From positions 1 through 25,357 of the IMG/VR virus record IMGVR_UViG_3300035701_000264: a stretch of 25,357 nucleotides of DNA; one strand, given 5' to 3'. A program made the translations under genes and the position numbers. Shown here piece by piece: positions 5,779 through 25,357 of the stretch. This DNA is from a virus. Under the pieces are notes generated by a model, which ran no database searches, had not been told where the DNA came from, and saw only the letters and a list, made by a program, of their open reading frames with translations. How positions within the stretch are numbered: the stretch's first letter is position 1; each line of letters begins with the position of its first letter.

Positions 5779-8700
5779 ATGTTACCATTTAATATATTAG
5801 AAGAAAAAGCAAATCAAGTCAACAAAATTAGTTATTTGTCTGCACTTGAAAGTTCTACGGTTTTGCTTAGCGATACCAACGAATTGTTTTTTGGAAATGA
5901 TGAAAATAGTAAAATTTATTTTGGCTTATTTAACAATAAGCAAGAAAAGATTTCATTTTCAATCATAACCGGTTCACACATACCACAAAATGTTCAATAC
6001 AGATATGAAGATATAGATGGAAATATTTTCATAGATCAATTTTCTTATTACAAAAATAATTTTATACAAGACAAAGAAAAAAATCTTTTGATTGATATAA
6101 GTGAATCAATTAAAAGTGCTGGCAATACATCTTCTGATGTTTTCTATGTTTTGATAGATCCTATTATTGATTTATTTTCTTTTAGTTCTTCACTTTTAAT
6201 AAAGGAAATAAGTAATTCTAGAAAAGAAATCAAATTGGTTAAAAACTTTTCTCAAGAAAATGTAAATAGTACCGTTACACTTTCCGTTGAGGGTGAACAG
6301 ATTTATCTAAATGGTTCTACTGAGGTCAATCTATTAAAAGGAATTGTATATAATATAAATGTATTAGTTCCAACTGATAATTTTGAGAAAATTGCTTTTA
6401 GTTTGACTCCTGATGGTGCGTTGTTTGTTGGTGGTGTCGCATACACAAAAAATATATTATACAAAACATCAAGAGGACAAATTGTATTAGATGCAACCGA
6501 TGAAAGTTTTCCATCCGTTTTATATGTTTACAATAACACCTTTACCAATTCTGGTGTAAAAATTAATTTCTTGGATAAGATAGATGATGCGGTTCTAAAA
6601 TTAAACACTGAATTTTTAGCATTAGACGCGAAAAACTTTTTATACAAAAGAATCTATCCATCTATGGATTATTATTTGTCTTCGTTTAATTCTAATAGAG
6701 CATTAAATACTGCCAAAAAAGAAAATGCAGAAAAATTAAACTCATTGTATACTTTATTTAATTTAAAAAGTGAAAATCAGTTGTTTGATTTGATTAATAC
6801 GATATATTACGGAGAATCATTTTTTGATAATAAACTAAGAAAGCAAATAAAATTTACTGGCATCAAAGAATACATCCTGAATCATATAAAATTTAATTAT
6901 GAATTTATAGGTGATTATGCTGAATTATCCTCTCAAATAAACGCAATAAATGTATATACTGTAGATAAATGGCTGTTGTTAATCAACCCCAATGCAACGC
7001 AAACATATTCGGATATAAAATTATACTCTGATAGTTTGTCTTTTTTAACAAATTTATTTAATAACTTTTTATTGCTATCGCAGATTTTTCTTAAAGCGGA
7101 CTATATAGAAAAATTTCATTCTCCATTGAAAACCGCGCTTCATTTTGATGAAGAAAATATGGCATTGTTGTTGAATTCTAGGGTGGATTATTCAGATCCG
7201 GCCAATTTGGAATATGTTGTAAAGCTTAAAGATCCTCTATCAGATGCTTATGATGTTGGTACAGTTTGTGGCGCAGTTAATATTTCTATTGAACCATTTT
7301 TTCAAAAAATTAATTATGCACAGTTAATTCAAAAGAAGGGTATAAGATTATCTGGACCAAATTTTTCAATAAATATAAGTGATAAAACATCTCTTGATAA
7401 AGTTACAAAATATTACACGGCAGAAGAACTAAATGCTGATTATAATGTAAATAATGAAATTTTATTATCAAAAAACATAAAACAATTTAACATAGACTAT
7501 ACAGATTTTTCCAATTTTGTTGTGTTTTCTTCTGCGCATATTCGTGTTAAAATATTTGAAAATAAGATAATTAAATTAACATTGTTGGAACAAGATATTT
7601 TAGATTTGGCTAAAGCGGGAAATATCCCACCAATTTATACTCAAGCAGATGGTTACAATAATACAATACAATTGAATGTGTATGGCGACAAGTTAGAGCA
7701 AAAGAATGATATTATTAATTCATTTGATTTTTATGAGTCATATCTTTACGAACAATATATTGCTGGGAATTTTGTTTATGACATAAATACCAAAAAATTT
7801 ATTGAGCCAGCTGATGTTGGATTATCTAATCCAAGGATATCAAATTATATAGATGAATTAGAAACAAATGCAATACAATACGATAGACAAAATCGAGACA
7901 GTTTAATCAGTAATACTCCAGAGTTTATTTCTGCAAATTCTGATAATGATGAATATTTGAAGTTTTTAAGTATGGTTGGTCATCATTTTGATAACATTTA
8001 TCTTTATATTGCAAATTTTAATTTATACAGAGAAATTGGAAGTAATATAGACGATGGTTTGAGCCGTGGATTGTTAAATAACATTCTAAATTCGTTTGGC
8101 TTTAAAATTCCTCCAAGTCTTTCTGGAAATAGTGATGAAGCAGATATTACAAATACATATTTGTCAAATACATACAATTCTGGATCTTACGAGTTTTCGT
8201 TGGATGATAGAACTAAAATAATCTGGAAAAGAATATTAACTAATCTTCCTGTTATATACAAATCAAAAGGTACCCAAGAGGCTATAAAATACATTTTGTC
8301 TTGTTATGGTGTTCCAAGGAATTTGATACAAATAAAAGAATTTGGCGGTGGTTATAATAGGCCTATTATTGAATCGTGGAATGATGTATCTACAAATGTT
8401 TATTTGTTGGAATTTACGGGCAGCAACGATGAATATGTAAAGATAAAAGACATTATACCTCATAAATCGGTTGATTTTAAATTCTGGCTTAATACAAGTA
8501 ATTATAGTGATAAATCTATTGTTCAGTTGTTATCTAGATATAATGTTAGTGGTGATCAAGTATTTTCTTTGGGCATTATAAAGGAAAAAGAAACACTGGG
8601 ACGGGTTTATGTTATATTTAAATTAGGAGGGGATGAGTTTAAATATGTAACCGATCAATTTTATTTACTTTCCGACGACATAATTGGAGTATTATTTAGA

Positions 8701-10560
8701 AGAAATTTGATTGATTCGAATTTTGAAAGTGTTATTGATGAAGGTATTATACCAACACAATATGATATTTTGGTGTGTAAAAGAAGTAATGAGTTGACCA
8801 CCGATTCATTTCAGTATTCATTTTATCTTTCTTCGTCATTTAACACCATTTTTGAAATTAATAACTTTAATATTTTTGGAAATATTACATCATCGGTTAC
8901 AGGGAGTGGAACATTCTTAGATATTAATTCGATAATACCAGGATATTCTGTTAAAAACTTTATCGGTGCATTAGATAAATTCTCATATAATCTATCTCCT
9001 ATATCAAATAATACATTTTATACAAAAAACAGAAACATATATTCTTATTACGATGGAAGTCCATCATCTAGCTATGTGAATTCTGTCTTTAACTTTGATT
9101 TGGGTTATCCAATTGATATTAGCGTAAGTTCGTCTACGGCAAATGGATTTTTGGTTTATAATAACAATATCAACTATTCTTATTTAACCGCATCATTGTA
9201 TAATTTTGTTGGTAGTAATTATACGGAAATATTTAATACATCTAGTTGCATGTCACAATCTGTGACGATATTTCCATATCAAACAAAGGATTTTGAAGCT
9301 ACAATTAAATATGATGTAAGCGGAGTAGGACCATCTAGACTTGAAAATGTAAAAATAAACAGACATTATGAAACTAGAGTAGATAATACGCTTTCACCAC
9401 ATTCTTCAGTTTCACAAAAAGAATCTCAGAATTATTATGAAGATTCCAACAAACTTGGAATATTTTTGGCGCCTACCGATGAAAGAAACAAAGATATATT
9501 GGATTTTTACGGAGACACTAACATTATATCGTCGGTAGCTTATCCCGAAGATAGATATTCATCTAATTTTCGCTATAAGTCCTTTAGACTTTTAAGAAAT
9601 GATTTTTACAATTATGCTAACAAATATAAGGTATTATTTAATGAGTTGTTTGCAATTTATAACATTTATGTTGACAGAAGTATATTTGAAACATTAAAGA
9701 ATGTATTTCCAGCGCGAAATAAAGTATATACTGGATTATTAATTGAACAAACAATTTTGGAAAGAACAAGAATACCAAATCTTCCACCATTTGTTGATAA
9801 CATCAATGTGCCGACGGGTTATATAGACCTTCGGAATATTATAAATCATATCAATGGTGGAGAATTTACAAATTTATTATCAACGAATTCAAAAATGATA
9901 AAATATCAATATGATGATTCATATGTGGAAAATAATTATTATGGCTTCTCAGATATTAGTGACACTCCTGACAAATATCAACATGGTCTTTTCATAGAAT
10001 CTGGAAGTGGTATAACTCAATATGATTCTGATTATTATTATGTATATCTGGTTGATGTTCCACTAAAAGTTCATTACACAGATAGAATGAATTTATTGGG
10101 TACATTGGAAAAAACTTTTAAACGCGTAGAATTAGTAGAAACAGCATCGGCTTTTAATGCTTCTCCACCTCCTAATTATACTTTATATTATAAAAACTAT
10201 TACAATAACACTTCGTTTAAACCATTGTCTTTTAGAAAAGAGGCTTATCCAAATTTTAATACTAATGTATTTGTTTCACCTTCGCCTTCTTGGACGGTTA
10301 AATCAAGACAAACAAGTATAACAACAATAAATCAATCGAGAAAAACAGATAGAAGCCCGATAATATCAACTGGAACTGGTGGCGTGATTAATACTGGTCA
10401 AGTAGGTTCGACCAGTAATGTCGGTGTAACTACAACGGGTGGTGGTGGGTCAGCTATAATTACAGGTGGGGGAACGGCTGGTACAGGCGGTTCAACTGGT
10501 GGAACAACCACCACGCCAATTGGAGTGGCTAGTAGCCCAACTCCTACAATTGTGAGATAA
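5779..10560 (+). CDS. Large virion structural protein, probable tail/baseplate, with LamG-like domain
   Basis: A 1593-residue protein. Residues ~725-775 (LSMVGHHFDNIYLYIANFN, then GLSRGLLNNILNSFGF) and ~817-858 (RILTNLPVIYKSKGTQEAIK, then LSCYGVPRNLIQIKEFGGG) resemble conserved segments I associate with large tail/baseplate-type proteins of environmental phages. Residues ~873-1115 look like a LamG/concanavalin-type beta-sandwich, beginning VYLLEFTGSNDEYVKI. Residues ~1295-1335 carry IFETLKNVFPARNKVYTG followed by LLIEQTILERTRIP, another conserved-looking block. The last ~65 residues are a Gly/Thr-rich low-complexity tail. No catalytic motif was found. It is the largest gene in the window and lies in a run of structural genes, so an assembly or scaffold role in the tail is the best inference. 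The exact baseplate counterpart cannot be named. No Shine-Dalgarno precedes the ATG. Confidence 0.6.
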   Translation: MLPFNILEEKANQVNKISYLSALESSTVLLSDTNELFFGNDENSKIYFGLFNNKQEKISFSIITGSHIPQNVQYRYEDIDGNIFIDQFSYYKNNFIQDKEKNLLIDISESIKSAGNTSSDVFYVLIDPIIDLFSFSSSLLIKEISNSRKEIKLVKNFSQENVNSTVTLSVEGEQIYLNGSTEVNLLKGIVYNINVLVPTDNFEKIAFSLTPDGALFVGGVAYTKNILYKTSRGQIVLDATDESFPSVLYVYNNTFTNSGVKINFLDKIDDAVLKLNTEFLALDAKNFLYKRIYPSMDYYLSSFNSNRALNTAKKENAEKLNSLYTLFNLKSENQLFDLINTIYYGESFFDNKLRKQIKFTGIKEYILNHIKFNYEFIGDYAELSSQINAINVYTVDKWLLLINPNATQTYSDIKLYSDSLSFLTNLFNNFLLLSQIFLKADYIEKFHSPLKTALHFDEENMALLLNSRVDYSDPANLEYVVKLKDPLSDAYDVGTVCGAVNISIEPFFQKINYAQLIQKKGIRLSGPNFSINISDKTSLDKVTKYYTAEELNADYNVNNEILLSKNIKQFNIDYTDFSNFVVFSSAHIRVKIFENKIIKLTLLEQDILDLAKAGNIPPIYTQADGYNNTIQLNVYGDKLEQKNDIINSFDFYESYLYEQYIAGNFVYDINTKKFIEPADVGLSNPRISNYIDELETNAIQYDRQNRDSLISNTPEFISANSDNDEYLKFLSMVGHHFDNIYLYIANFNLYREIGSNIDDGLSRGLLNNILNSFGFKIPPSLSGNSDEADITNTYLSNTYNSGSYEFSLDDRTKIIWKRILTNLPVIYKSKGTQEAIKYILSCYGVPRNLIQIKEFGGGYNRPIIESWNDVSTNVYLLEFTGSNDEYVKIKDIIPHKSVDFKFWLNTSNYSDKSIVQLLSRYNVSGDQVFSLGIIKEKETLGRVYVIFKLGGDEFKYVTDQFYLLSDDIIGVLFRRNLIDSNFESVIDEGIIPTQYDILVCKRSNELTTDSFQYSFYLSSSFNTIFEINNFNIFGNITSSVTGSGTFLDINSIIPGYSVKNFIGALDKFSYNLSPISNNTFYTKNRNIYSYYDGSPSSSYVNSVFNFDLGYPIDISVSSSTANGFLVYNNNINYSYLTASLYNFVGSNYTEIFNTSSCMSQSVTIFPYQTKDFEATIKYDVSGVGPSRLENVKINRHYETRVDNTLSPHSSVSQKESQNYYEDSNKLGIFLAPTDERNKDILDFYGDTNIISSVAYPEDRYSSNFRYKSFRLLRNDFYNYANKYKVLFNELFAIYNIYVDRSIFETLKNVFPARNKVYTGLLIEQTILERTRIPNLPPFVDNINVPTGYIDLRNIINHINGGEFTNLLSTNSKMIKYQYDDSYVENNYYGFSDISDTPDKYQHGLFIESGSGITQYDSDYYYVYLVDVPLKVHYTDRMNLLGTLEKTFKRVELVETASAFNASPPPNYTLYYKNYYNNTSFKPLSFRKEAYPNFNTNVFVSPSPSWTVKSRQTSITTINQSRKTDRSPIISTGTGGVINTGQVGSTSNVGVTTTGGGGSAIITGGGTAGTGGSTGGTTTTPIGVASSPTPTIVR

Positions 10561-12470: not shown

Positions 12471-15400
12471 ATGTGGTGCGATAACACAATTGCTATTGGT
12501 GGAGAATATGTAGATTATGGACCAAATTGGTTATATGACTATTGTAATACAACAGTTGACCCAATAAGCGGTTCGTTAATATTACTAGAATTAGGATCAT
12601 TGCAGTATGTTTTAACAGATATAGACAATACTTTTGTTTTTCTTGAATCCTATTTACAAAATATTAACAATCTTCCTCTTCCCTATTTTTTACTTCCATA
12701 TTACAATCAAGCTGTTAAAAACACGATTCCAACTGGTTCAACTGCGTTTCTGTTGGGATTAGAACAAGGCAGTTGGGATTTTGCTTATATTGAAGAGGGA
12801 ATAAAGGTTGATAAACGCATTTTATTTAATCCAAACAACGAACCTAGGAATGTAGATGAATCCTATAAGCGAGTTGTTTATAATCAATATAAAAATTTAT
12901 ATTATCCTGATGTCAAGGATCCTACTAAGATGCTTGGATTAGACAATTTAGACATTTTATTAGACAACAAGAATAGACTTTTATATGATGAAATTAAAGT
13001 TGTAACAATACCACAACTATATTTTGCTGACAGAATAGAAGAAAATAGTGTGGAAATAGATGAAACGGCAGGAATATCTTCCTATAAAGTCATTGATGAT
13101 GGATTTGGAAATTTAAAAGCAAAAGATATGTTTTCATTTGTCATTGACGATGTTAACAAAACTATACCGGATTCTAATATCACCATTAAAAACAGAAATA
13201 TGGGTTATTCTGTTTCTATAAATGATAGATGCGCATTAATAGGGAATCCATGTTTTGAACTAACTGGGGTGGAAGGAAATGTTCAAGTTTATAAATTTAA
13301 TTCACAAATAAGCAATAGATTTTTTTATGATGGAATATTAAAAAGAAGAACCTTTAGTATATCTGAGGCTGCGCCTTTAATAGTTAAATGTTCAGATTTC
13401 GGCAGGTCAGTAGATTTATGTAAAAATGTTGCGGCGGTTTCTTCTATATTGGCTAGATACATATATCCATCGGGCTCAAATGTAGTATATACAGACGCGG
13501 GGGTTGTAGAGTTATATAACTTAAATACTGGTTCATATGCTACACCAGCTTATGTAATTTCTTCATCTATTATACCATCCACATATGAAACAGGAAGTGG
13601 AACTTTTGGTTGGACAATTTCTTTAAATGATGAATATTTGGCGATTGGCTGCCCGCACACTTATTTGTCGGGCAGTTTATCTTCGGGTAGTTACACTGGA
13701 GCAGTATATATTCTTTCTGGAAGTATAACCACAGGGTATGCATTTCATTCACAGTTGACAGGAAGTGATGTTCCCAATGATGTATTATTTGGAAAATGCT
13801 TAAAACTTGATAAAAACTATAATAAACTTGTAGTAGGAAATGGAGATAATACATTGGGATCGGGAAGTGTTTATTTATTTGAATTAACTGGTAGTGTGTG
13901 GGAGCAAACTTATAAATTTAATCCAACAAAAACAACAGAAAATTTGAATTTCTTGCCTGTTCAACCATATACAACCATTTTAAATGACGCGGATGGGTTT
14001 GGTACATCTGTTTCAATTTATTGTTCTTCTTCAACGGATATAAAAGTTGCCGTTGGCGCTCCGTTTGATAGAACTGTTTATGAATTTAGTGGTTCAGGCT
14101 GCTATAAAAATGGGGCGGTTTATATCTACGAAAAAGAACGATGTGAAATCCATAGTGCTTCTGTATATGCCTATTCTGGTTTTGTATTTAATCAAACTAG
14201 AATTTCTGGGGATGCCGACGCGTTTAAACAAAATATATTTGGTTTTTCTGTTGATATGTGGGGCGATAAAGTCATAGCATCTTGTCCAAAGTATTTTTCA
14301 GAATATACCACCGATTATATCTATAATACCTTTTTACAACCTTTCAATTTTAATGACATGGAAGAAATAAATAATGTTGGCATGTTTTATGTGTATCAAA
14401 AGGCCGACGATGGTTGGAATGTTTTTGGCAAATACAAGACTAATAAAATTTATTCACATCCATACAATTTTTACGCTTATGCAGTTTCATTATATGAAAA
14501 TAATCTTATAGCTGGATGCCCAATTGTAGTAGTTGACAATGATAATACTGTTCCAACTAATGTTTATGTTGATGAGTTAAAATATTTGAAAAATCTATGT
14601 GGAGATTTTAATATATTTAATTTAGTGGATTATAAACAAACACATTATATTGGAAATGTGTTTTATAAAACAGGAAAAATGATAACATCAACAAGTGGCT
14701 CGGTATTTGATTTTATATTTGAATCACCTGTTAATATTTATCCTGAATATAATATATCATTTAATAGCCGACTAAAGCTTTACCAAAAAGAAATTGTATG
14801 TACTATAAATCCTGGAGAATTTAACTATAGTACTAATCCAACTTCATATACTTATGAACCATATTCTGATTTTGATTTAAACAGAAACGGAAGATTTGAT
14901 TTTGATGATTGTGATAAATTATTAAGAATTATCAACTTTAAATTTACATCAAATGAAAGGTGGTGGGAGCATTTTAATTATACAGATTCAAATGGGAATT
15001 TTATATTAGATGAATCTTTTGCTACAATCGAAGAGGTTGTTCCTTATAGTTTGTTTAAGTTTTATTTGAATAATAATAGACCGATGGATTCTAAGTTTGG
15101 GTCTGTGTCTGAAATTAATACTATGATTAATGCATACGATTCTTTGTTAGACATAAATGACGACGGCGTGGCGGATTATTTAGATGTAAATTTGTTGTGG
15201 AAGTTTTTTACAACTACACTAACAATTAATAATTATGAAGCATATCAAAACCAAAAAAGTATAATTTCAAGCCGCAATTCCTTTGATTTAATTTATGCCT
15301 ATCTATTGGAGGAAACAGGAAAAAATAAACCTGGTAAGATTTTAGATAGATTTTACAGCCGGCCTATGTCAGCTTCTGTTTCCGACACCACATCTTCATA

Positions 15401-15530
15401 TTTGGTGCCATATATAACGACAATAGGATTATATGATGGGGCAGATCTTATGGGTGTAGCTAAACTTGGGACTCCAATACGAAATCAAGGAGTATTTCCG
15501 TTGAATTTTATCATAAGATTCGACATATAA
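12471..15530 (+). CDS. Virion adhesin-like protein: FG-GAP-type beta-propeller plus dockerin-like Ca2+ loops
   Basis: A 1019-residue protein. Residues 1-240 include VVTIPQLYFADRIEENSVEI and DDGFGNLKAKD, a block I associate with environmental phage structural proteins. Residues ~244-710 contain seven repeats of the form [FMY]-[GA]-x-[SCT]-[VIL]-x-(L/I)-x(3-8)-hydrophobic-hydrophobic-G/S followed by G-x-V-x-[VIL]-[YF]. Examples are MGYSVSINDRCALIGNP, FGWTISLNDEYLAIGCP and FGTSVSIY with VAVGAP. This fits a seven-bladed FG-GAP/integrin-alpha-like propeller. After it come Ca2+ loops at D802 (D-x-N-x-N-G-x-x-D-x-x-D) and D894 (D-x-N-x-D-G-x-x-D-x-x-D), with a weaker D839 loop between them; the spacing is dockerin-like. 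The C-terminus (ITTIGLYDGADLMGVAKL) repeats the module ending 11322-12410. A receptor- or surface-binding virion role is inferred; no signal peptide is present. Confidence 0.65.
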   Translation: MWCDNTIAIGGEYVDYGPNWLYDYCNTTVDPISGSLILLELGSLQYVLTDIDNTFVFLESYLQNINNLPLPYFLLPYYNQAVKNTIPTGSTAFLLGLEQGSWDFAYIEEGIKVDKRILFNPNNEPRNVDESYKRVVYNQYKNLYYPDVKDPTKMLGLDNLDILLDNKNRLLYDEIKVVTIPQLYFADRIEENSVEIDETAGISSYKVIDDGFGNLKAKDMFSFVIDDVNKTIPDSNITIKNRNMGYSVSINDRCALIGNPCFELTGVEGNVQVYKFNSQISNRFFYDGILKRRTFSISEAAPLIVKCSDFGRSVDLCKNVAAVSSILARYIYPSGSNVVYTDAGVVELYNLNTGSYATPAYVISSSIIPSTYETGSGTFGWTISLNDEYLAIGCPHTYLSGSLSSGSYTGAVYILSGSITTGYAFHSQLTGSDVPNDVLFGKCLKLDKNYNKLVVGNGDNTLGSGSVYLFELTGSVWEQTYKFNPTKTTENLNFLPVQPYTTILNDADGFGTSVSIYCSSSTDIKVAVGAPFDRTVYEFSGSGCYKNGAVYIYEKERCEIHSASVYAYSGFVFNQTRISGDADAFKQNIFGFSVDMWGDKVIASCPKYFSEYTTDYIYNTFLQPFNFNDMEEINNVGMFYVYQKADDGWNVFGKYKTNKIYSHPYNFYAYAVSLYENNLIAGCPIVVVDNDNTVPTNVYVDELKYLKNLCGDFNIFNLVDYKQTHYIGNVFYKTGKMITSTSGSVFDFIFESPVNIYPEYNISFNSRLKLYQKEIVCTINPGEFNYSTNPTSYTYEPYSDFDLNRNGRFDFDDCDKLLRIINFKFTSNERWWEHFNYTDSNGNFILDESFATIEEVVPYSLFKFYLNNNRPMDSKFGSVSEINTMINAYDSLLDINDDGVADYLDVNLLWKFFTTTLTINNYEAYQNQKSIISSRNSFDLIYAYLLEETGKNKPGKILDRFYSRPMSASVSDTTSSYLVPYITTIGLYDGADLMGVAKLGTPIRNQGVFPLNFIIRFDI

Positions 15531-15548: not shown

Positions 15549-16115
15549 ATGATAAAAGACAACATTCTTTCGACTAATACAATCTCTCTCCGAGAGAGAT
15601 ATGCAGATTCAGCGCATTCAAAGGTTGGTAAAATAACACCAAATGAAACGCCAATATTAGGTGTTTATAATAAATCCAAAGAATCTAAATTTGTTAAGAT
15701 TTCTCCAAATGAAACCCCTATATTGGATACATTTAATAAATCAGACCATTCTAAGTTTATAAAGCATACGCCTGATGAAACGCCTATCCTTGGAACTTTT
15801 AATAAGTCAGAGCATTCTCATTTTGTAAAGCATACACCAGACGAAACGCCTATTCTTGCCACTTTTAATGCATCAGACCATTCTAAGTTTATTAAACATA
15901 CACCAGATGAGACACCAATTCTTGCTACTTTTAACGCATCGGAGCATTCTCATTTTGTAAAGCATAAGCCAGATGAAACGCCAATTCTTGCTACTTTTAA
16001 TAAATCTGGTCATTCGAATTTTGTAAAACATACACCAAATGAAACGCCTGTATTAGCTTTGTATAATTCATCGGGACATTCTACAGAAATTGACACTACA
16101 AAATATTATCCTTAA
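15549..16115 (+). CDS. Repeat protein of seven 22-residue units, function unknown
   Basis: A 188-residue protein. After a 22-residue N-terminus containing ISLRERYAD, residues 23-176 are seven exact 22-residue units, then HSTEIDTTKYYP. The consensus is H-S-[KH]-F-[IV]-K-H-[TK]-P-[DN]-E-T-P-[IV]-L-x-[TVL]-[FY]-N-x-S-x; PxETPxL and N-x-S are kept in all units. Units 3/4 and 5/6 alternate (DHSKFIKH, EHSHFVKH), indicating duplication of a 44-residue pair. The repeats are rich in His and Lys, with no Cys, signal peptide or membrane segment. I do not recognise the family. The location after virion genes suggests a small structural or accessory protein, but a DNA- or protein-binding role is equally open. 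Its stop codon overlaps the stop of the convergent minus-strand gene. Confidence 0.7.
   Translation: MIKDNILSTNTISLRERYADSAHSKVGKITPNETPILGVYNKSKESKFVKISPNETPILDTFNKSDHSKFIKHTPDETPILGTFNKSEHSHFVKHTPDETPILATFNASDHSKFIKHTPDETPILATFNASEHSHFVKHKPDETPILATFNKSGHSNFVKHTPNETPVLALYNSSGHSTEIDTTKYYP
15582..15600. repeat. 19-bp palindrome inside the start of the repeat-protein gene
   Basis: ATCTCTCTC-C-GAGAGAGAT: two 9-base arms around one central base, within codons 12-18. It is unusually G/C-containing and regular for this AT-rich sequence. It could be a dimeric protein binding site, or a chance product of the codons for SLRER. Confidence 0.5.
15615..16076 (+). repeat. Seven tandem in-frame 66-bp repeats
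   Basis: Seven consecutive 66-nt units encode the 22-residue repeats. Codons differ between copies much more than the amino acids do, for example ACGCCTGATGAAACG against ACACCAGATGAGACA. The array is therefore old or under selection on the protein. Units 3-4 and 5-6 form an alternating 132-nt pair. Confidence 0.85.
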
Positions 16116-16510
16116 AATTTTTGGATTCTAATTCTACCGCCAACATATTCATTGTAATAACTAGAATCAAATAGTGCATTGGCAAGTATTATTTGTTTCA
16201 TTTCTTCATAGTTAAGTTCAGATTTGGATTTGCGCCAATATAAAATTTCAAAGAGGAAATTATCTTTACCAATTTTTTGTATATCTTCTTGTAGTTTCTT
16301 ACAACTTCCCGTATAGGATTTCCAATCGGAGGCTTTTGTAGATCGTCGTTTGTTTACACGACCCTTTAGAGGCTTCTTGGAGACTTTAAATTTCAACAAT
16401 TTTTTGCCCAAATATTTTTTATCGTTAGTGAGATTGGTTATTTTATAAATAAATCCGATACTATTTTCCGGCGGTTCTTCTTTTACAATCCAATGGCCAT
16501 AGTCATTCAT
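16112..16510 (-). CDS. GIY-YIG-type putative endonuclease
   Basis: A 132-residue protein and the only minus-strand gene. GFIYKITNLTNDKKYLGKK (residues 19-37) fits the GIY-YIG signature: G19-F-I-Y22 and K32-Y-L-G35. A basic stretch follows (KKPLKGRVNKRRSTKASDWK), then SDWKSYTGS, GKDNF, an acidic NYEEMK and a terminal YYNEYVGGRI. This order (FIYxITN, YxGKK, DWxxYxGS, E in the last helix, YYNE) matches a small group of putative GIY-YIG nucleases I know from T4-like cyanophages. It has no extra DNA-binding domain, so it may be a stand-alone homing-type or repair-type nuclease; cutting activity is not shown. Its stop overlaps the stop of 15549-16115 by two bases within TTAA. Its start faces the primase start across 88 nt. 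Confidence 0.7.
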   Translation of the reverse strand: MNDYGHWIVKEEPPENSIGFIYKITNLTNDKKYLGKKLLKFKVSKKPLKGRVNKRRSTKASDWKSYTGSCKKLQEDIQKIGKDNFLFEILYWRKSKSELNYEEMKQIILANALFDSSYYNEYVGGRIRIQKF

Positions 16511-16598: not shown

Positions 16599-17552
16599 AT
16601 GTTATTGCAGGAAGATATAATATCTGTTTTAAATAAAGTACTTAAACAAAAAGGACGAATTAGAAGGGGAGAAGACCTTGTATATTTTTGTCCTGCTTGT
16701 AACCATTATAAAAGAAAGCTTGAAGTAAATATATTTACTGGCAAATATCATTGTTGGGTTTGTGGCTTTTCAGGATTATCATTTAAGACATTGTTTAAGA
16801 AATTAAATGCTCCGCCGGAAGCGTATTATATAATTAAAGAGAGTTATAAACTAAAGCCTAAAGATGAAAATGAAATAGACCATTTATTTGACACAAAAGA
16901 AAAAGAACGGAATGTTGTAAATTTTTTACCAAAAGAATTTAAACCAATTTATCTTCCACAGAAATCAATAGAATATAAACATGCGATAAATTATTTAAAG
17001 AAACGCGGAGTTACAAAATTCGATATGTATAGGTATAACATCGGCTATTGTGAAATAGGAAAATTTGCAAATAGAATTATAATACCTTCATATGATTCAA
17101 ATAACAATTTGAATTTTTATTCCGGAAGAAGTTATTATGATAGTTGTAATTTTAAGTATCAAAATTGTGATTTTTCAAAGGATATTGTTGGGTTCGAATC
17201 AAATATTAACTGGAAAGAACCGATTACCTTGACGGAAGGTGCGCTTGATGCAATTGCAATACGATATAATGCTATTCCATTATTCGGAAAGAGTATGTCA
17301 GGCAAACTTAAAAAATGTATAATAGATAATGCTGTTTATAAAATTAATGTAATTTTAGATGATGATGCAATTAAGGATTCTATCAATATTTATGATCAGT
17401 TATCTTCTATGGGAGTGAAAAAGATACATATTATAGTTTTAAAGGATAAAGACCCATCAAAAATGGGATTTGAAAAAATAACAGAAGTAATTGATAACTC
17501 TGAAGCACAAACATTGTCGGATATGTTGAAATTAAAGATAAAGTATTCATAA
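16599..17552 (+). CDS. DnaG-type DNA primase (zinc-ribbon plus TOPRIM)
   Basis: A 317-residue protein. The N-terminus has a zinc-ribbon with C31-P-A-C34 and C52-W-V-C55, spaced as in DnaG/T7/T4-type primase zinc domains, which recognise the template. The C-terminal half has a TOPRIM core: ITLTEGALDAIA with catalytic-type E213, then VILDDDAIKD with D254-D-D256, the acidic pair that binds metal ions. RIIIPSYDSNNNLNFYSGR upstream matches the typical strand leading into TOPRIM. It has no helicase domain, so it would act with a separate replicative helicase not found in this window. Its role is to make RNA primers for lagging-strand phage DNA synthesis. The next gene starts 3 nt after its stop, so the two are probably translationally coupled. 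Confidence 0.85.
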   Translation: MLLQEDIISVLNKVLKQKGRIRRGEDLVYFCPACNHYKRKLEVNIFTGKYHCWVCGFSGLSFKTLFKKLNAPPEAYYIIKESYKLKPKDENEIDHLFDTKEKERNVVNFLPKEFKPIYLPQKSIEYKHAINYLKKRGVTKFDMYRYNIGYCEIGKFANRIIIPSYDSNNNLNFYSGRSYYDSCNFKYQNCDFSKDIVGFESNINWKEPITLTEGALDAIAIRYNAIPLFGKSMSGKLKKCIIDNAVYKINVILDDDAIKDSINIYDQLSSMGVKKIHIIVLKDKDPSKMGFEKITEVIDNSEAQTLSDMLKLKIKYS

Positions 17553-17555
17553 GTT

Positions 17556-20500
17556 ATGGTAACATATTTAAAAAATGACATTAAAAATTTTGTAGGGATT
17601 TTGCAGGTTGCAGATATTCATCTTAGACTTACAAAACGGCACGATGAATATCTACTTGCTTTTGATAAATTGTATTCTGCTATTAAACTTACGCCGCCGG
17701 AAACAGTTGTGGCTGTTCTTGGTGATGTGTTTCATTCCAAATCAGATTTAAGTCCGGAATGTGTAGAGTTTGCAAGTGAATTTCTTAAAGCCATTGCTGA
17801 TTTGCGTCCGACTATATTGGTGGCGGGAAATCATGATGCTACTCTTTCAAACCGAAATAGATTGGACAGTTTAACGCCAATAGTAAATGCTTTAGACCAT
17901 AAGAATTTATACTATTTAAGAGATACAGGGTTATACACTTTGGGTGACATACTATTCAATAATATGTCTATATTTTCTCCTCCCGAAGATTATATTAAAG
18001 CAAAAGATATACCAAAAATATATCGAAATAACACCAATTATCTTATTGGATTGTTTCATGGACCGGTTAATAATGCAATAACAGATATTGGCTATGTTGT
18101 CAGTAATCGCAGTATAACATTAAATACATTTGATGGACATGAAATTGTTCTTTTGGGTGATATTCACAAATATCAACTACTTCAAAGGTATAATTCAAAC
18201 AATGACAAGCCGGTTGTGGTCTATCCTGGGTCATTTGTACAGCAAAATCATGGTGAAGATGTTTCTGGCCATGGTTATGTCGTGTGGAATTTAAAAACAA
18301 AGGCTTTTAGGCACTTCGAAATACCAAATGAATATGGATTTTATACCATAGAAGTTAACAAAGGAAAATTGGTAACGGATATTAAAGATATTCCTAAAAA
18401 GGCGCGCTTAAGAATTAAATGCTTTGAATCGGTTATTATGGAAGTGAAATCGGTATTGGCGGCTATCAAAGAACACACAGATATTTCTGAGGTTACTTAT
18501 TTTAGAGTAGATGATGGCAGCTCATTGAAAAATATAATCAACACAGCGAATTTAAAATTGAGCGACATAGGCTCAGTTGATTATCAAAATGAGTTAATAA
18601 AAGCATTTTTAACCAAAAAGTTTCCTGATAAGAAAATAACCGATGAAGAATTTAATAAGGTTTTTGAAATTAATAAACAGCTTAATGCGTTAATTGAAAA
18701 AGACAATCTTGTTAGAAACATTCGTTGGCGTCCTAAGAAATTTGAATTCAATAATATGTTTAGTTATGGTGAAGGAAATGTAATAGATTTCACCAATATG
18801 AAAAATACGATTGGATTATTTGCACAAAATACCGCAGGAAAATCTTCAATACTATCAGCCTTGAGTTTTTGTATTTTTGATAAATGTGACAGAGCATTTA
18901 AAGCATCCCATGTATTAAACAGCCAAAAAATGTCATTTGATTGTAAGTTTAATTTTGAAATAAATGGTGTGGACTTTTTTATAGAAAGAAAGGGAATAGC
19001 TGATAAAAAAGGTATTGTAAAGGTTGATGTAAAGTTCTGGAAAGAGGAAAATGGTAAAATAACCGAGCTTAATGGTGAGGCCAGACGCAGTACTAATGAT
19101 ATTATAAGGGACTACCTTGGCACATATGACGATTTTATCCTAACAGCGCTGTCCATTCAAAATAATAAGGCAGGTTCGTTTGTGGATATGGGTCAAACAG
19201 AAAGAAAGGATTTATTATCACAATTCATGGGATTGACCATTTTTGACAGTTTATATCAAGAATCTGTTGATAAATTGAAGGAAATCAATGGGGAATTGAA
19301 GTCTTACAATCTTTTAGAAACGGATATCTATGAAACAATTAGAATTCTATCTGAAAAAATAGAAAAAACTGATGTTTTGTATAAAAAAGAATCTGGATTA
19401 TATGAATCATTACAAGCCGATAAAACATTGTTAAATGATAAAATCATAGAGCAAAATAAAAAATTAATTAAATTGGAGATTGATGTTCCAAAAGATGTGA
19501 ATGATTTGATTTCAAAGAAAAATGTCGTGGGGGCTAAAATCTCCAAGTATGATTATGAGATTAAAGAATTAAAATCGGACAATGAATCCTCACAGAATGA
19601 TTTAAATTCTGTGCTACTAAAGATAAAAACTTCGGTTGATAGTAATATAGACAAAAGACATGAAGAATTTGAAACTTTAAATGAAGAATTAAATCAGAAA
19701 AATAACGAATTAGAAACTCGAAAGATTGTTATCAAGTCTAAGCTTGATAAAATTAACAAATTGGAAAAACACAAATATGATCCTAATTGTAAATTTTGTG
19801 TGGATAATGAATTTGTAAAAGATGCTATTTTGGCAAGAGATACGATTGGTCAAGATAAAAAAGAAGTTGATGATTTTATAAAGGAATATGATGCGCTTAG
19901 CAGTAAAATCAAATCCACCTCTGGAATATTAGACGAATACACTACATATGAAAACGATTTGGAACTTAAAAACAGATTGGAAAATTCTGTTAAAGATACA
20001 TGCAATTCTATATTGAAATTGGAAAACTTAATGTCCGGAGAATCTAAAAAATTATCTGAGATAGAACAGAATATAATACTTTACCACCAACAAAAAGACG
20101 CTATTGAAAATAACAATGCGATTGAAAAAATCATAACTTCCATTGATGACGAAATTGATGAATTGGATAAGAAAATTAAGAATAAAAATAAAGAAGTAAT
20201 TTCTATAAATTCTGAATTGGTTTCCATCAAAAAAGACAAAGAACTTCAAGAGAAGAATGTTCAAAAAATAAAAGAATTGGAAGCGAAAAAATCTGCTTAT
20301 GAGCATTATGTTTTTGCTGTTTCTCGCGATGGTATTCCATTTGAATTGATTTCTCAAGCAATTCCTGTGATAGAACGGGAAGTCAACGAAATATTAAGTC
20401 AAATAGTAGAATTTACCGTAAACATTCAAACCGATGGTAAAAATGTAATAACTTATATATGTTATCCAGATAAAAAATGGGCATTAGAGTTATCAAGTGG

Positions 20501-20765
20501 AATGGAAAGATTTATAAGTTCGATTGCGATTAGAACAGCGTTAATCAACATATCAAATTTGCCTAGGCCTAATTTTTTGGTTGTTGACGAAGGATTTTCA
20601 GCTTTGGACGCTTCAAATTTGCCAGCATTGTCAACATTGTTTTCGGTTCTTAAAACCCAATTTGACTTTTTGATTATAATAAGCCATTTGGATGCAATTC
20701 GAGACTTTGTGGACTCAAGAATGGAGATAACTAAGGAGAATGGATTTTCTAAAATAGTGTATTAA
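17556..20765 (+). CDS. Single-chain SbcD-SbcC (Mre11-Rad50; T4 gp47-gp46-like) fusion nuclease/ATPase
   Basis: A 1069-residue protein. Residues 1-~390 are a calcineurin-like Mre11/SbcD phosphoesterase: D20-x-H22, G56-D57-x-x-H60, G91-N-H-D94, H168, then G201-D202-I-H204 where most relatives have GHxH. From ~400 the Rad50/SbcC part begins, with FEFNNMFSYGEGNVIDF and Walker A AQNTAGKSS (A423 to S431). The usual GxNGxGKS is changed at two glycines. Long coiled coils (~570-960) flank a zinc-hook C745-K-F-C748. The signature LSSGMERF (L979) and Walker B FLVVDEGFSALD (D1011, E1012) close the ATPase head. Normally these are two proteins that form a complex for processing DNA ends and recombination-dependent replication. 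Here no stop or restart separates them, giving a fixed 1:1 ratio. The gene follows the primase by 3 nt. Confidence 0.88.
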   Translation: MVTYLKNDIKNFVGILQVADIHLRLTKRHDEYLLAFDKLYSAIKLTPPETVVAVLGDVFHSKSDLSPECVEFASEFLKAIADLRPTILVAGNHDATLSNRNRLDSLTPIVNALDHKNLYYLRDTGLYTLGDILFNNMSIFSPPEDYIKAKDIPKIYRNNTNYLIGLFHGPVNNAITDIGYVVSNRSITLNTFDGHEIVLLGDIHKYQLLQRYNSNNDKPVVVYPGSFVQQNHGEDVSGHGYVVWNLKTKAFRHFEIPNEYGFYTIEVNKGKLVTDIKDIPKKARLRIKCFESVIMEVKSVLAAIKEHTDISEVTYFRVDDGSSLKNIINTANLKLSDIGSVDYQNELIKAFLTKKFPDKKITDEEFNKVFEINKQLNALIEKDNLVRNIRWRPKKFEFNNMFSYGEGNVIDFTNMKNTIGLFAQNTAGKSSILSALSFCIFDKCDRAFKASHVLNSQKMSFDCKFNFEINGVDFFIERKGIADKKGIVKVDVKFWKEENGKITELNGEARRSTNDIIRDYLGTYDDFILTALSIQNNKAGSFVDMGQTERKDLLSQFMGLTIFDSLYQESVDKLKEINGELKSYNLLETDIYETIRILSEKIEKTDVLYKKESGLYESLQADKTLLNDKIIEQNKKLIKLEIDVPKDVNDLISKKNVVGAKISKYDYEIKELKSDNESSQNDLNSVLLKIKTSVDSNIDKRHEEFETLNEELNQKNNELETRKIVIKSKLDKINKLEKHKYDPNCKFCVDNEFVKDAILARDTIGQDKKEVDDFIKEYDALSSKIKSTSGILDEYTTYENDLELKNRLENSVKDTCNSILKLENLMSGESKKLSEIEQNIILYHQQKDAIENNNAIEKIITSIDDEIDELDKKIKNKNKEVISINSELVSIKKDKELQEKNVQKIKELEAKKSAYEHYVFAVSRDGIPFELISQAIPVIEREVNEILSQIVEFTVNIQTDGKNVITYICYPDKKWALELSSGMERFISSIAIRTALINISNLPRPNFLVVDEGFSALDASNLPALSTLFSVLKTQFDFLIIISHLDAIRDFVDSRMEITKENGFSKIVY

Positions 20766-20787: not shown

Positions 20788-23700
20788 ATGTCTAATGTCC
20801 GTACAATCAGTGGTACAAAATATGACCTTTTGCGTTTAAAGGTAGATATTGAAGATACCAATTATAGATCTGAGTATTTTACCGTATCAGATTTAGCAGA
20901 TACTTTGACCTCTGGAAAGACATTTTTTACCATAAATGGGTCAGATAAGTTAAAGAAAAACTCTAATATTTTGGTAGAAGTTCTGGATTCCAAGGGTACT
21001 GTCCTTTTCTATGAATTAACAAAATCCGGATATCATCTCTATCGAGACACAACCGATCTTGTTGTTGCGATAACGGTATCTGATAATATTAGTCCGGGTC
21101 TTGGAAAGATTGTTTTGGTTGGTACTACAGCCAACGGCAAATCAGTAAGATGGTCTACGAATATTAAGATTAATCCAGCATTGGATAATTCTTCTCGAAT
21201 AATATATTTAAAAACTCCTGAACTTTTCACACAAGAAGTATTATCATATGTTTTAAACGAAGCGCTCTCTACTACTATTCAAAACGATGCGATTTTATCA
21301 GGGAATGCTACTGGCAGTTCTTTATTTCCAAAAAATTATTCTGATTATGATTCTTTCTATCAAAAAGATACTTCTTTTTCTTATAAATTATACGCATATA
21401 GTATAGTATCAACTCTTGGTGTTGATAATGTTTTTGATTTGGAAAATATCAACACACCTATAGATTTATATGTAACAAAAATTTCATATTTAAACAATGA
21501 AAATAATATTGTAACACTAAATGTAAGTCTTACCCAGTCATTTTTAATACAAAGTGTAGTCAATAACAATACAGTGGTATTGAATAAACCTTTTATATAT
21601 TCATTTTCTGGAATTAATCAGATAGTTCCTGTTGTTGAATCAAAATTTATTAATAATTATGTATCTTCAACATATATTACTACTTCACAATTGATAACTT
21701 CTGCTGATCCTGATGGTGCGCCTAATCCTTCTGTATTTCAAACTAGTACTACTTCAAGCGCAAGTCTTCGTGAAGGATTTTTAGATGTAACATATAAAGC
21801 AATTAAACCATTTACTGGAAAAGCTGCTAGACATAAAATTTATCGAAGAAGTTTAAATAAATCGTCGGGTTGGACTAATATGGCTGATGAGCCATTGTTT
21901 AATACAAATATTTTAATAGATGATGTTACCGTAAATAGAGCATACAAAGATTTGGGAATCTATTATAACCAAAATCATATAAGCACATATTACTATTCAA
22001 GCTCTGCTCTTATTTCTATGTCATATGATTCATCCGTAAAACTGAATTCAATGAATGTAGTTTGCGGTGGATTGCCTGATTATAATTTAAGTCAAAGTAA
22101 TTATATAATATTAAAAAATAATAGTTCATTGCTTACATCAAACACATATAAATCTACATATGTGCCTTATGATTCTTCATCTTTTTTAACTAAAAAAGGT
22201 GCGGCGTATGACAGCAATTTTATAAAATTCTATAAACAAACAAATTATTTGTTTTCAGCAGATTTGGAATTAGCATCGTTGTCGTCATCGGCCGATGCAA
22301 AATTAATATTTTATTTAACCGGTTCATATAATTTGCCATATGTTGGCACAGAAACAGCTTATGTAGAAGGGCGTGGAATAAAATTAGCAGAATATCCGGT
22401 AAAGCGTGGTGTTAATTATGTTAAATTTAACGCTGCGGATGTTGGTTCATTATTTGCTTTTAATAATGATTTAATAGGTACTGTTTCTATAGTTCCTGTA
22501 AATTTAGCATCATTTAAAATATCTAATTGGAACATATATACTTATTCAGAATTTGGTTGTTCTCCGGATTTATATATAACTCGCATACCATTTCCAGTAA
22601 CTATTAAAAATGAACAATTTGAATTAAAATTTGAATTGCTTGATATAAATTCAAAACTTGTATATTCTTTTCCCAATAAAATAATAAATTTTGACCCAAA
22701 TGGCTATACTTTATACAAAAATATAACTTCTAATTATTCCGTTTCTTCATTGAGTAGTTCTTATACAACAACTGCAAGTTGGGCATCAAAAACTATAAGT
22801 GCATCATATGCTTTGACCAGTTCATATGCACTATCTTCAAGTTGGGCGCCAAGTTCGACAAATATAAGTTCATCATATGCTTTGACAAGTTCATTTGCTG
22901 TATCTGCAAGTTGGGCGCCAAGTTCAACATTTATAAGCGCATCATATGCTTTGACCAGTTCATATGCGTTAACAGCAACCAGTGCATCTTATGCCCCTGG
23001 TGCACCATCAATAAGCGCATCATATGCATTGACCAGTTCTTATGCGATTACATCCAGTGAATCGGGGACGGGTTATAATGGAAATAGAACTATAAAACGC
23101 AGTCCATATACCACTTTAAATGTAGGAGGTACTTCCTTGAAAGATTTTATTGAAAATTTCTTTTTTCCTTTTGTTCCCGCTACGGTGGCAATTTCAAGTG
23201 GTGGTACAACATATTATGAAACTGGTTCGAACCAAAATATTTCAGTTGTATCAACAATAACAGCTAATGATGAAATAACATTTGGTTCATCAAGTGTTTA
23301 TAGGGATTCTGCTGCTTGGAATACGACAGGTTCACCAAGTCCTTTGATTTTTACATTTACGGATACAACTATATCTTCAAGTCACACTTATCAAACTAGT
23401 ACTCAAACTAATAATAATGGTTCACCAACAGTAATAAGTTCAAACACTAAGACGGCAACTTTTATTTATCCATATTTATATGGTATGAGTGTAACAGCCG
23501 GATTGTCAGGAGTGGCATTATATACAGGACTTTCTGGAAAATCAATAACACCACAAGGCAGTAAAACATTTAATTATAGTGGAACGGCGGTATATATGTA
23601 TTTTGCATACCCAGCATCATATTCAGATTTGGTATCTATTTTAGACCCAAATAGTTTTCAAGTAATTGGAAGTTTTCAATATTCTGGGTCTGTTCCTGTA

Positions 23701-23796
23701 ACCAGTTCTGGATTGTCAACAGATTGGATGCAAACATATAAAGTGTATAGAACAACATTAGTTGCATCGCCAAGTGGTAATTTTATATTTAGTTAA
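20788..23796 (+). CDS. Tail-fibre-like virion protein with aromatic hexapeptide repeats
   Basis: A 1002-residue protein. The N-terminal ~130 residues (YDLLRLKVDIEDTNYRSEYF, KLKKNSNILVEVLDSKG, VRWSTNIKINP) look like a beta-rich attachment domain. Similar N-termini are familiar to me from large structural proteins of environmental myoviruses; this was not checked. Residues ~652-757 consist of [YFW]-A-x-[ST]-x-S hexads: SYALTS, SYALSS, SWAPSS and similar. A conserved-looking C-terminal domain starts near 785 (FFFPFVPATVAISSGG) and runs to residue 1002 with fibre-like beta strands. It lacks catalytic motifs. The same hexads fill the next gene, so both probably belong to one adhesion or fibre assembly. 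There is no Shine-Dalgarno; the start is preceded by an alternating AT stretch. Confidence 0.65.
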   Translation: MSNVRTISGTKYDLLRLKVDIEDTNYRSEYFTVSDLADTLTSGKTFFTINGSDKLKKNSNILVEVLDSKGTVLFYELTKSGYHLYRDTTDLVVAITVSDNISPGLGKIVLVGTTANGKSVRWSTNIKINPALDNSSRIIYLKTPELFTQEVLSYVLNEALSTTIQNDAILSGNATGSSLFPKNYSDYDSFYQKDTSFSYKLYAYSIVSTLGVDNVFDLENINTPIDLYVTKISYLNNENNIVTLNVSLTQSFLIQSVVNNNTVVLNKPFIYSFSGINQIVPVVESKFINNYVSSTYITTSQLITSADPDGAPNPSVFQTSTTSSASLREGFLDVTYKAIKPFTGKAARHKIYRRSLNKSSGWTNMADEPLFNTNILIDDVTVNRAYKDLGIYYNQNHISTYYYSSSALISMSYDSSVKLNSMNVVCGGLPDYNLSQSNYIILKNNSSLLTSNTYKSTYVPYDSSSFLTKKGAAYDSNFIKFYKQTNYLFSADLELASLSSSADAKLIFYLTGSYNLPYVGTETAYVEGRGIKLAEYPVKRGVNYVKFNAADVGSLFAFNNDLIGTVSIVPVNLASFKISNWNIYTYSEFGCSPDLYITRIPFPVTIKNEQFELKFELLDINSKLVYSFPNKIINFDPNGYTLYKNITSNYSVSSLSSSYTTTASWASKTISASYALTSSYALSSSWAPSSTNISSSYALTSSFAVSASWAPSSTFISASYALTSSYALTATSASYAPGAPSISASYALTSSYAITSSESGTGYNGNRTIKRSPYTTLNVGGTSLKDFIENFFFPFVPATVAISSGGTTYYETGSNQNISVVSTITANDEITFGSSSVYRDSAAWNTTGSPSPLIFTFTDTTISSSHTYQTSTQTNNNGSPTVISSNTKTATFIYPYLYGMSVTAGLSGVALYTGLSGKSITPQGSKTFNYSGTAVYMYFAYPASYSDLVSILDPNSFQVIGSFQYSGSVPVTSSGLSTDWMQTYKVYRTTLVASPSGNFIFS
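22741..23058 (+). repeat. Aromatic hexapeptide repeat region, gene 20788-23796
   Basis: Repeated nucleotide blocks close to GCATCATATGCTTTGACCAG start near 22801, 22870, 22939 and 23017. They encode SYALTS units separated by WAPSST-type units. Bases are well conserved between copies, so slippage or recombination is plausible. Confidence 0.8.
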
Positions 23797-23799
23797 TTT

Positions 23800-25357
23800 A
23801 TGTCAATAACATTAATAGATGGATTTATAAATACAGCAGCCTTACCGGTTGATTTAAAATCGGTGTGGGCTTCAACCTCCAGCTTGTATACATCCTCAGC
23901 AGGTGGATTCATATCTTCTTCATGGCGTTATGTTGGTATGACTGTTTACTGCCAAGACGCATCTTCTTCATATCAATTGATTGACGGAGTAGTCGATGCA
24001 AATTGGGTTAAACTTACCACAGGAAGCAATTATATTTCTTCTAGTTATGCCTTAACTTCTTCATACACATTAACCGCTAGTTTTGTGTCCGGAAGTAGTG
24101 GAAATGCCGCTTCCGCTTCTTATGCCTTAACAGCATCATATTTAAATCCTGGCACATATAGTATTACTTCAAGTTGGTCTAATAATTCCATATCAGCATC
24201 GTATGCTCTATCAAGTAGTAATGCAATTAGTTCTTCATGGGCTTTAACCGCCAGTTACTTTAATGATATTGACTTAACAGTACCTAGTGCTTCATGGGCA
24301 TCTTCTTCGATTAGCTCATCTTATGCTCTATCAAGTTCTTATGCAACAATAGCAACAAGTGCTTCAGCCGCGACAAGCATTACTTTTACGCCAACTACAG
24401 CATCATATGCAATAAGTTCTTCTTGGGCTTTAACCGCTAGTTACTTTAATGATGTTGACCTAACAGTGCCTAGCGCATCATGGGCATCTTCTTCGATAAG
24501 TTCGTCTTATTCTTTGTCAAGTTCCTATGCAGAAGTAGCAACTAGCGCCTCTTACGCAACCGCTTCATTCCAAACTGTGAGCGCATCCTTTGCTACGACT
24601 TCTTCATGGGCGTTAACAGCTAGTTACTTCAATGACATTGACTTAACAGTGCCTAGCGCATCATGGGCATCTTCATCAATAAGTGCTTCATATACATTAT
24701 CAAGTTCCTATGCAGTAACAACGACCAGTGCATCTTACGCTTTATCGAGTTCCTACGCAGCAACGGCAACTAGCGCTTCAACTGCAACAAGTATTACCTT
24801 TACACCAATAACGGCATCATATGCAACGACAGCTTCGGCTGCTACAAGCATTACTTTTATACCAACAACCGCATCATTTGCAACAACAGCAAGTTGGGCA
24901 CTAACCGCAAGCTATTTTAATGACATTGACTTAACAGTACCTAGTGCCTCTTGGGCATCTTCCTCAATAAGTGCTTCATATGCCTTATCAGCGTCATGGG
25001 CTCCTGATTTAACTATAACTCAAGTATCGGCTAGTTATGCCCTAACAGCAAGCTGGGCGTTAACAGCTAGTTACTTTAATGATGTTGACTTAACAGTACC
25101 CAGTGCATCTTGGGCATCTTCATCAATTAGTGCTTCCTACTCGACCACCGCAAGTTTCGCTCCAAATCAAAGCATAATGATACTTGGTTCGGGTACTTGT
25201 TCAACACAACGGAGTGGCAGTGGTAATACTGCTAGTGGTAATTGTTCGACAGTAGGTGGTGGCGTTGGTAATACTGCTAATAGTGTTTATTCAACTATTG
25301 CGGGTGGTGTCAACAACGCCGCGTATTGTACCGGACCAACAATTGGTGGTGGTTGGA
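23800..25357 (+). CDS. Tail-fibre-like adhesin, 3' end outside window
   Basis: The frame is open from the ATG at 23800, 3 nt after the previous stop, to the window edge (519 codons). The N-terminal ~75 residues (LPVDLKSVWAST, WRYVGMTVYCQDASSSYQLI) resemble the short head module that starts many phage fibre-type proteins. The next ~390 residues are almost entirely [YFW]-A-x-[ST]-x-S hexads. Five copies of a longer unit, WALTASYFNDxDLTVPSASW, are embedded among them. From ~465 the sequence changes to STxxxGxGNTASGNxSTVGGG-type repeats, like the head repeats of YadA-type trimeric adhesins and some phage fibres. A trimeric fibre ending in a receptor-binding or S74-type chaperone domain beyond the window is a reasonable inference. 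Confidence 0.72.
   Translation, partial: MSITLIDGFINTAALPVDLKSVWASTSSLYTSSAGGFISSSWRYVGMTVYCQDASSSYQLIDGVVDANWVKLTTGSNYISSSYALTSSYTLTASFVSGSSGNAASASYALTASYLNPGTYSITSSWSNNSISASYALSSSNAISSSWALTASYFNDIDLTVPSASWASSSISSSYALSSSYATIATSASAATSITFTPTTASYAISSSWALTASYFNDVDLTVPSASWASSSISSSYSLSSSYAEVATSASYATASFQTVSASFATTSSWALTASYFNDIDLTVPSASWASSSISASYTLSSSYAVTTTSASYALSSSYAATATSASTATSITFTPITASYATTASAATSITFIPTTASFATTASWALTASYFNDIDLTVPSASWASSSISASYALSASWAPDLTITQVSASYALTASWALTASYFNDVDLTVPSASWASSSISASYSTTASFAPNQSIMILGSGTCSTQRSGSGNTASGNCSTVGGGVGNTANSVYSTIAGGVNNAAYCTGPTIGGGW
24235..25130 (+). repeat. Five copies of a WALTASYFNDxDLTVPSASW unit
   Basis: Copies start at about 24235, 24421, 24604, 24892 and 25051, at spacings of 186, 183, 288 and 159 nt, all multiples of three. 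Each unit is followed by a variable number of aromatic hexads. Nucleotide identity is high (for example GACTTAACAGTACC in most copies), suggesting recent amplification. Confidence 0.85.
25186..25357 (+). repeat. GNTA/STVGGG head-type repeats, continuing past the edge
   Basis: The segment encodes repeated S-T-x-x-G-G-G-x-x-N-x-A units (CSTVGGGVGNTANS, YSTIAGGVNNAA). The period is roughly 14 residues, as in left-handed beta-roll heads of trimeric adhesins. It is interrupted by the window end. Confidence 0.65.

Follow-up and report, generated by a model that had tools for sequence, protein, structure and literature searches.

Mre11 and Rad50, when made as separate proteins, are understood to form an M2R2 complex. 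In 2011, Yoshida, Claverie, and Ogata described fusions of the two, with examples from Mimivirus, plasmids, eukaryotes, and a phage; they also placed environmental homologues on phage-like scaffolds. In that study, the fusion was confirmed in only a few long environmental R555-like sequences (PMC3175470). The same work calculated a linker of 9–12 residues from the unfused T. maritima complex, and recorded primases among the phage-like genes on the scaffolds of the environmental R555 homologues and an H-to-D replacement in motif V of Mimivirus R555 (PMC3175470). A search of the literature for biochemical data on phage Mre11–Rad50 fusions found none.

The locus described here lies in a 25,357-nucleotide stretch of viral DNA (hereafter, the window), in which the initial annotation had recognized Mre11 and Rad50 homologues in one frame. 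ORF calling returned a single unbroken ORF of 1069 amino acids on the plus strand (17556–20765; GC 31%, with 88 and 147 stop codons in the other two forward frames), and database matches confirmed both homologues within it. PHROG 100 (SbcD-like) matches residues 14–375 (E = 2e-22), PHROG 77 (SbcC-like) matches residues 270–1069 (E = 1e-53), and Pfam Metallophos, the calcineurin-like phosphoesterase family, covers residues 15–206 (E = 2e-11). In sequence searches, the C-terminal module matched solved Rad50 and SbcC chains, and a profile built from 40 fused relatives matched both Mre11/SbcD and Rad50/SbcC chains. Structural matches in the PDB comprised Mre11–Rad50/SbcCD and other SMC-like ATPases, and the top structural matches were full-length fusions of Tupanvirus, Yasminevirus, Harvfovirus, Catovirus, and others, from giant viruses and jumbo phages. 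The protein consists of an Mre11/SbcD-like part (residues ~1–380) and a Rad50/SbcC-like ATPase with a zinc hook (residues ~390–1069), both complete. Domain identity, order, and continuity were as first proposed, and the motifs are present; the limits given (residues 20–204 and 420–1012) need small corrections, since the Mre11 part, with its putative capping domain and Rad50-binding helices, extends to ~380 and the Rad50 part begins at ~390 rather than at 420.

All features of the fused gene lie on the plus strand. The Mre11-like phosphodiesterase domain (residues ~1–260; 17556–18335), in which Pfam and motif conservation in ~101 sequences place intact motifs I–V, is followed by a putative capping, or accessory DNA-binding, region (residues ~261–338; 18336–18569), recognized from the beta/alpha layout of an AlphaFold2 model; its borders are drawn from predicted secondary structure, and residues 319–332 have low confidence in the model. 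A helix-loop-helix that forms the putative Rad50-binding domain (18576–18692) leads into the interdomain linker (residues ~380–389; 18693–18722). Sequence and profile matches, the alignment, and the model define the Rad50 N-lobe (18723–19310) with its P-loop and Q-loop, which continues into an antiparallel coiled coil of predicted long helices (19311–20255) bearing a CKFC zinc hook (19788–19799). The Rad50 C-lobe (20256–20762), identified by sequence and profile matches and the alignment, completes the protein.

The five phosphodiesterase motifs were found with D, H, D, N, H, H, and (H/D)xH as metal ligands; the motif residues are D20/H22, D57/H60, N92/H93/D94, H168, and D202/H204. Likewise, the bipartite ABC ATPase set is complete, with the P-loop AQNTAGKS (423–430), the Q-loop (Q535), the signature SSGME (980–984), Walker B (D1011/E1012), the D-loop (D1018), and the H-switch (H1044), and the CxxC hook cysteines C745 and C748 are present in 102/102 aligned sequences. 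In the alignment of ~101 fused sequences, the phosphoesterase, ATPase, and hook residues are invariant or nearly so. Motif V reads GDIH rather than GHxH, with D202 in place of the first histidine. Because T5-like unfused pairs also have an aspartate at this position, GDIH need not signify a loss of activity, although metal use could differ.

The same domain order was sought in relatives and found in a single frame at 100 related viral or MAG loci besides the window, a count that includes PTm1 and one locus with an in-frame intein; the relatives stem in part from a viral contig collection with at least 592 candidate stretches, of which the best 80 were kept. The remaining collected loci ended at a contig edge, were frameshifted in the coil (L029), were masked (L105), or were interrupted by an insertion (L006). 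Cultured or complete phages with the fusion include Mel-JY01, PTm1/PTm5, pT24, PAU, and MA9V-1, and more distant fusions occur in phiXF1, phiLo, IME392, Ab1-TPeters, and Carin-5. The gene is also fused in a 735-kb phage record (L007) and, with an insertion, in the 484-kb record LR756508 (L006). R555, the GOS homologues, and the plasmid and eukaryotic fusions lie outside the collections searched. A home in bacterial genomes or plasmids was considered and rejected: the plasmid search gave no match, and in the collection of genome contigs just four loci turned up, all from MAGs; some of these, if not all, are probably viral contigs binned into MAGs. The fused gene with a primase upstream also sits on contigs L103 and L104, one assigned to an archaeal MAG and the other to a bacterial one; both are probably phage DNA binned with hosts or mistakenly. 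The fusion had initially been presented as unusual, an assessment to be withdrawn if such fusions proved common in this phage clade. They were looked for and are common; the protein is another Mre11/Rad50 fusion of the type described in 2011 (PMC3175470).

The gene directly upstream, separated by a 3-nt gap, encodes a phage DNA primase (16599–17552, plus strand; PHROG 47, E = 2e-36). Of the 100 related loci with enough flanking sequence, 98 have a primase relative upstream in the same orientation, mostly directly adjacent; the two exceptions are the 735-kb record and PTm1 (L008). This arrangement fits the phage-like scaffolds with primase genes of the 2011 study (PMC3175470), and the conserved neighbor suggests that end processing is coupled to replication.

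Based on the domains, catalytic residues, selected junction (described below), conserved fusion, and conserved primase neighbor seen in this analysis, and with biochemistry and replication role modeled on gp47/gp46, SbcCD, and Mre11–Rad50, the protein is very probably a single-chain Mre11–Rad50 (SbcD–SbcC) end-processing enzyme of a tailed phage, acting in recombination-dependent replication and repair. Two chains would dimerize via their Mre11 phosphodiesterase domains and, with ATP, via their Rad50 heads, producing an M2R2 particle; the zinc hooks may link arms of one particle or of separate ones. On binding ATP, the complex would clamp DNA and control entry to its Mn-dependent nuclease; once ATP is hydrolyzed, ends or hairpins could be nicked and resected, leaving 3′ single-stranded tails. 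As with T4 gp47/gp46, these tails would feed recombination-dependent replication and repair, and the neighboring primase, encoded on the same strand, would act in the same phase of replication. Alternatively, the protein might act mainly in degradation of host DNA or in counter-defense, given that T4 gp46/gp47 are annotated as required for both recombination and host-DNA degradation and that SbcCD-like nucleases cut varied ends. The replication primase that adjoins the fusion in nearly all of the loci points to replication instead and makes a principal role in host-DNA degradation or counter-defense improbable, even though T4 illustrates that the two roles can coexist.

The AlphaFold2 monomer model (mean pLDDT 82.6, pTM 0.45) predicts helices at residues 341–355 and 363–379, then ~10 residues with little regular structure, and the first Rad50 strand at residue 390. 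At a pTM of only 0.45, the relative placement of the domains is not fixed by the model. The position of the two helices is that expected of the helix-loop-helix through which Mre11 binds the Rad50 coil, and Q344, I348, N373, and N377 within them are conserved. The layout is that of the R555 type, with an N-terminal Mre11 and a C-terminal Rad50 in one chain, and the linker of ~10 residues fits the 9–12 calculated from the unfused complex (PMC3175470), so ordinary Mre11–Rad50 geometry is probably preserved despite the fusion. The helix-loop-helix ends only ~10 residues before the Rad50 head of the same chain begins, so assembly should occur in cis at a 1:1 ratio. Assembly in cis is the sole consequence to be drawn from the fusion itself; that the fusion fixes stoichiometry and the placement of the nuclease on the ATPase heads is plausible. 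Posttranslational cleavage into separate Mre11 and Rad50 would leave the fusion without mechanical consequence. Such a linker is exposed in principle, and phages carry proteases, yet the segment is short and conserved, with near-constant length in relatives, and no protease site was recognized in it, which renders cleavage very unlikely.

The nearest relative, from another metagenome (L001), is 79% identical and has the same architecture in an unbroken ORF. Between it and the window, pN/pS is 0.19 for the whole gene, 0.12 for residues 336–400, and 0.05 for residues 375–400, the last value resting on few changes (2 nonsynonymous and 12 synonymous). Purifying selection acts on the codons spanning the junction, and these low values, which would be expected only for a joined frame that is translated, indicate that it is selected and reflects neither chance nor misassembly. 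An internal start yielding free Rad50 was considered and rejected: a codon scan found no in-frame ATG, GTG, or TTG between codons 335 and 401, and free Rad50 is therefore not obviously also made. The fused frame is apparently intact and real. That a lost stop or a frameshift in assembly or sequencing had joined two genes, as may have happened in Listeria phage LMTA-57 (L118), whose fused ORF is owed to one A missing from a poly-A run relative to A511, is an explanation that can be given almost no credence and was rejected in view of the independent fused relatives, the junction conserved in sequence and length in their alignment, the selection on that junction against L001, and the lack of a start codon for a separate Rad50.

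LMTA-57 itself, which illustrates how an artifact or a recent mutant looks, is annotated with a fused "recombination exonuclease." In A511 and most other phages close to LMTA-57 the two genes are separate; for nearly all of these phages the match is one base longer and the annotation gives two genes. An independent fusion in this phage, which would seemingly force several origins (AU p = 5e-5), was rejected as a 1-nt deletion. In an unrooted tree of 30 proteins with long branches, the window's group and the PTm1-type jumbo phage fusions form one supported group, phiXF1, phiLo, IME392, Ab1-TPeters, and Carin-5 form a second fused group, and unfused pairs of the T4, T5, and Herelleviridae types fall outside both. 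With LMTA-57 removed, the fused proteins fall into two groups in the best tree, but the AU test does not reject a single origin of the fusion (p = 0.32). Given the long branches and the missing root, one or two fusion events may have occurred among these phages. More speculatively, a large, mostly aquatic group of tailed phages might carry the near-invariant primase–fusion pair as one replication-restart unit, and this lineage might be the reservoir from which Mimivirus-like viruses acquired their fusion; this broader proposal is tentative and, on balance, doubtful.

Candidate mobile elements were observed in and around this and related fused genes. Beside the primase in the window, and outside the complex, lies a putative GIY-YIG (SegE-like) homing endonuclease (16112–16510, minus strand; Pfam PF19835, E = 1e-30). 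GIY-YIG relatives are found close to the fused gene at 16 further related loci, and the region may therefore be a frequent homing target. On a 303-kb viral contig (L094:4992–9155), the fused gene contains a 326-aa intein with Intein_splicing and LAGLIDADG_1 matches, inserted within or next to the active-site motif III (GNHD) of Mre11. In LR756508, an insertion of ~1 kb (L006:8570–9640) splits the Mre11 module immediately downstream of motif V and carries an HNH/TnsA-like endonuclease ORF (8662–9579). This insertion is a candidate intron or other homing element; compared against Rfam, it gave no significant match and no known intron.

Elsewhere in the window, a 1019-aa ORF (12471–15530) matches FG-GAP_2 repeats, has no other match, and is probably structural, and a 66-base tandem repeat lies within a small ORF (15636–16081). 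Downstream of the fusion, long ORFs (20788–25356) with Ser/Ala-rich repeats of 69, 186, and 57 bases resemble tail-fiber proteins, and the last ORF has a weak Prok_Ub match. Four long ORFs between 523 and 10560 (717, 693, 307, and 1593 aa) had no Pfam or PHROG match, and Rfam returned nothing significant for RNA features in the window.

More generally, the overall significance of the locus is modest. The long contigs back the proposal made in 2011 that environmental sequences resembling R555 come mostly from phages (PMC3175470). A single-chain Mre11–Rad50 of 1069 residues, expected to assemble 1:1 in cis, would also be convenient for structural and single-molecule work.

Among known systems, the protein resembles the Mimivirus R555 type in having Mre11 before Rad50, a short linker, a GDxH motif V, and, as for the environmental homologues, phage-like surroundings with a primase; R555 differs in its 1351 residues and in a coiled coil described as cellular in length (PMC3175470). 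Microcystis phage Mel-JY01 (WWT39521) and LR756508 are 36–37% identical to the window protein over nearly the whole length and also have the primase upstream, but in LR756508 the Mre11 part is broken by the insertion with its HNH-type endonuclease ORF. The PHROG 35725 fusions (PTm1, pT24, PAU, and MA9V-1) share the fused order and form the sister group in the tree, although they are larger at ~1300 aa, and PTm1 is only 18% identical with no primase found upstream. T4 gp47/gp46, T5-type D12/D13, and E. coli SbcD/SbcC correspond to the fusion in their two homologous proteins, gene order, and expected chemistry, and differ from it in being encoded by separate genes that are adjacent or slightly overlapping.
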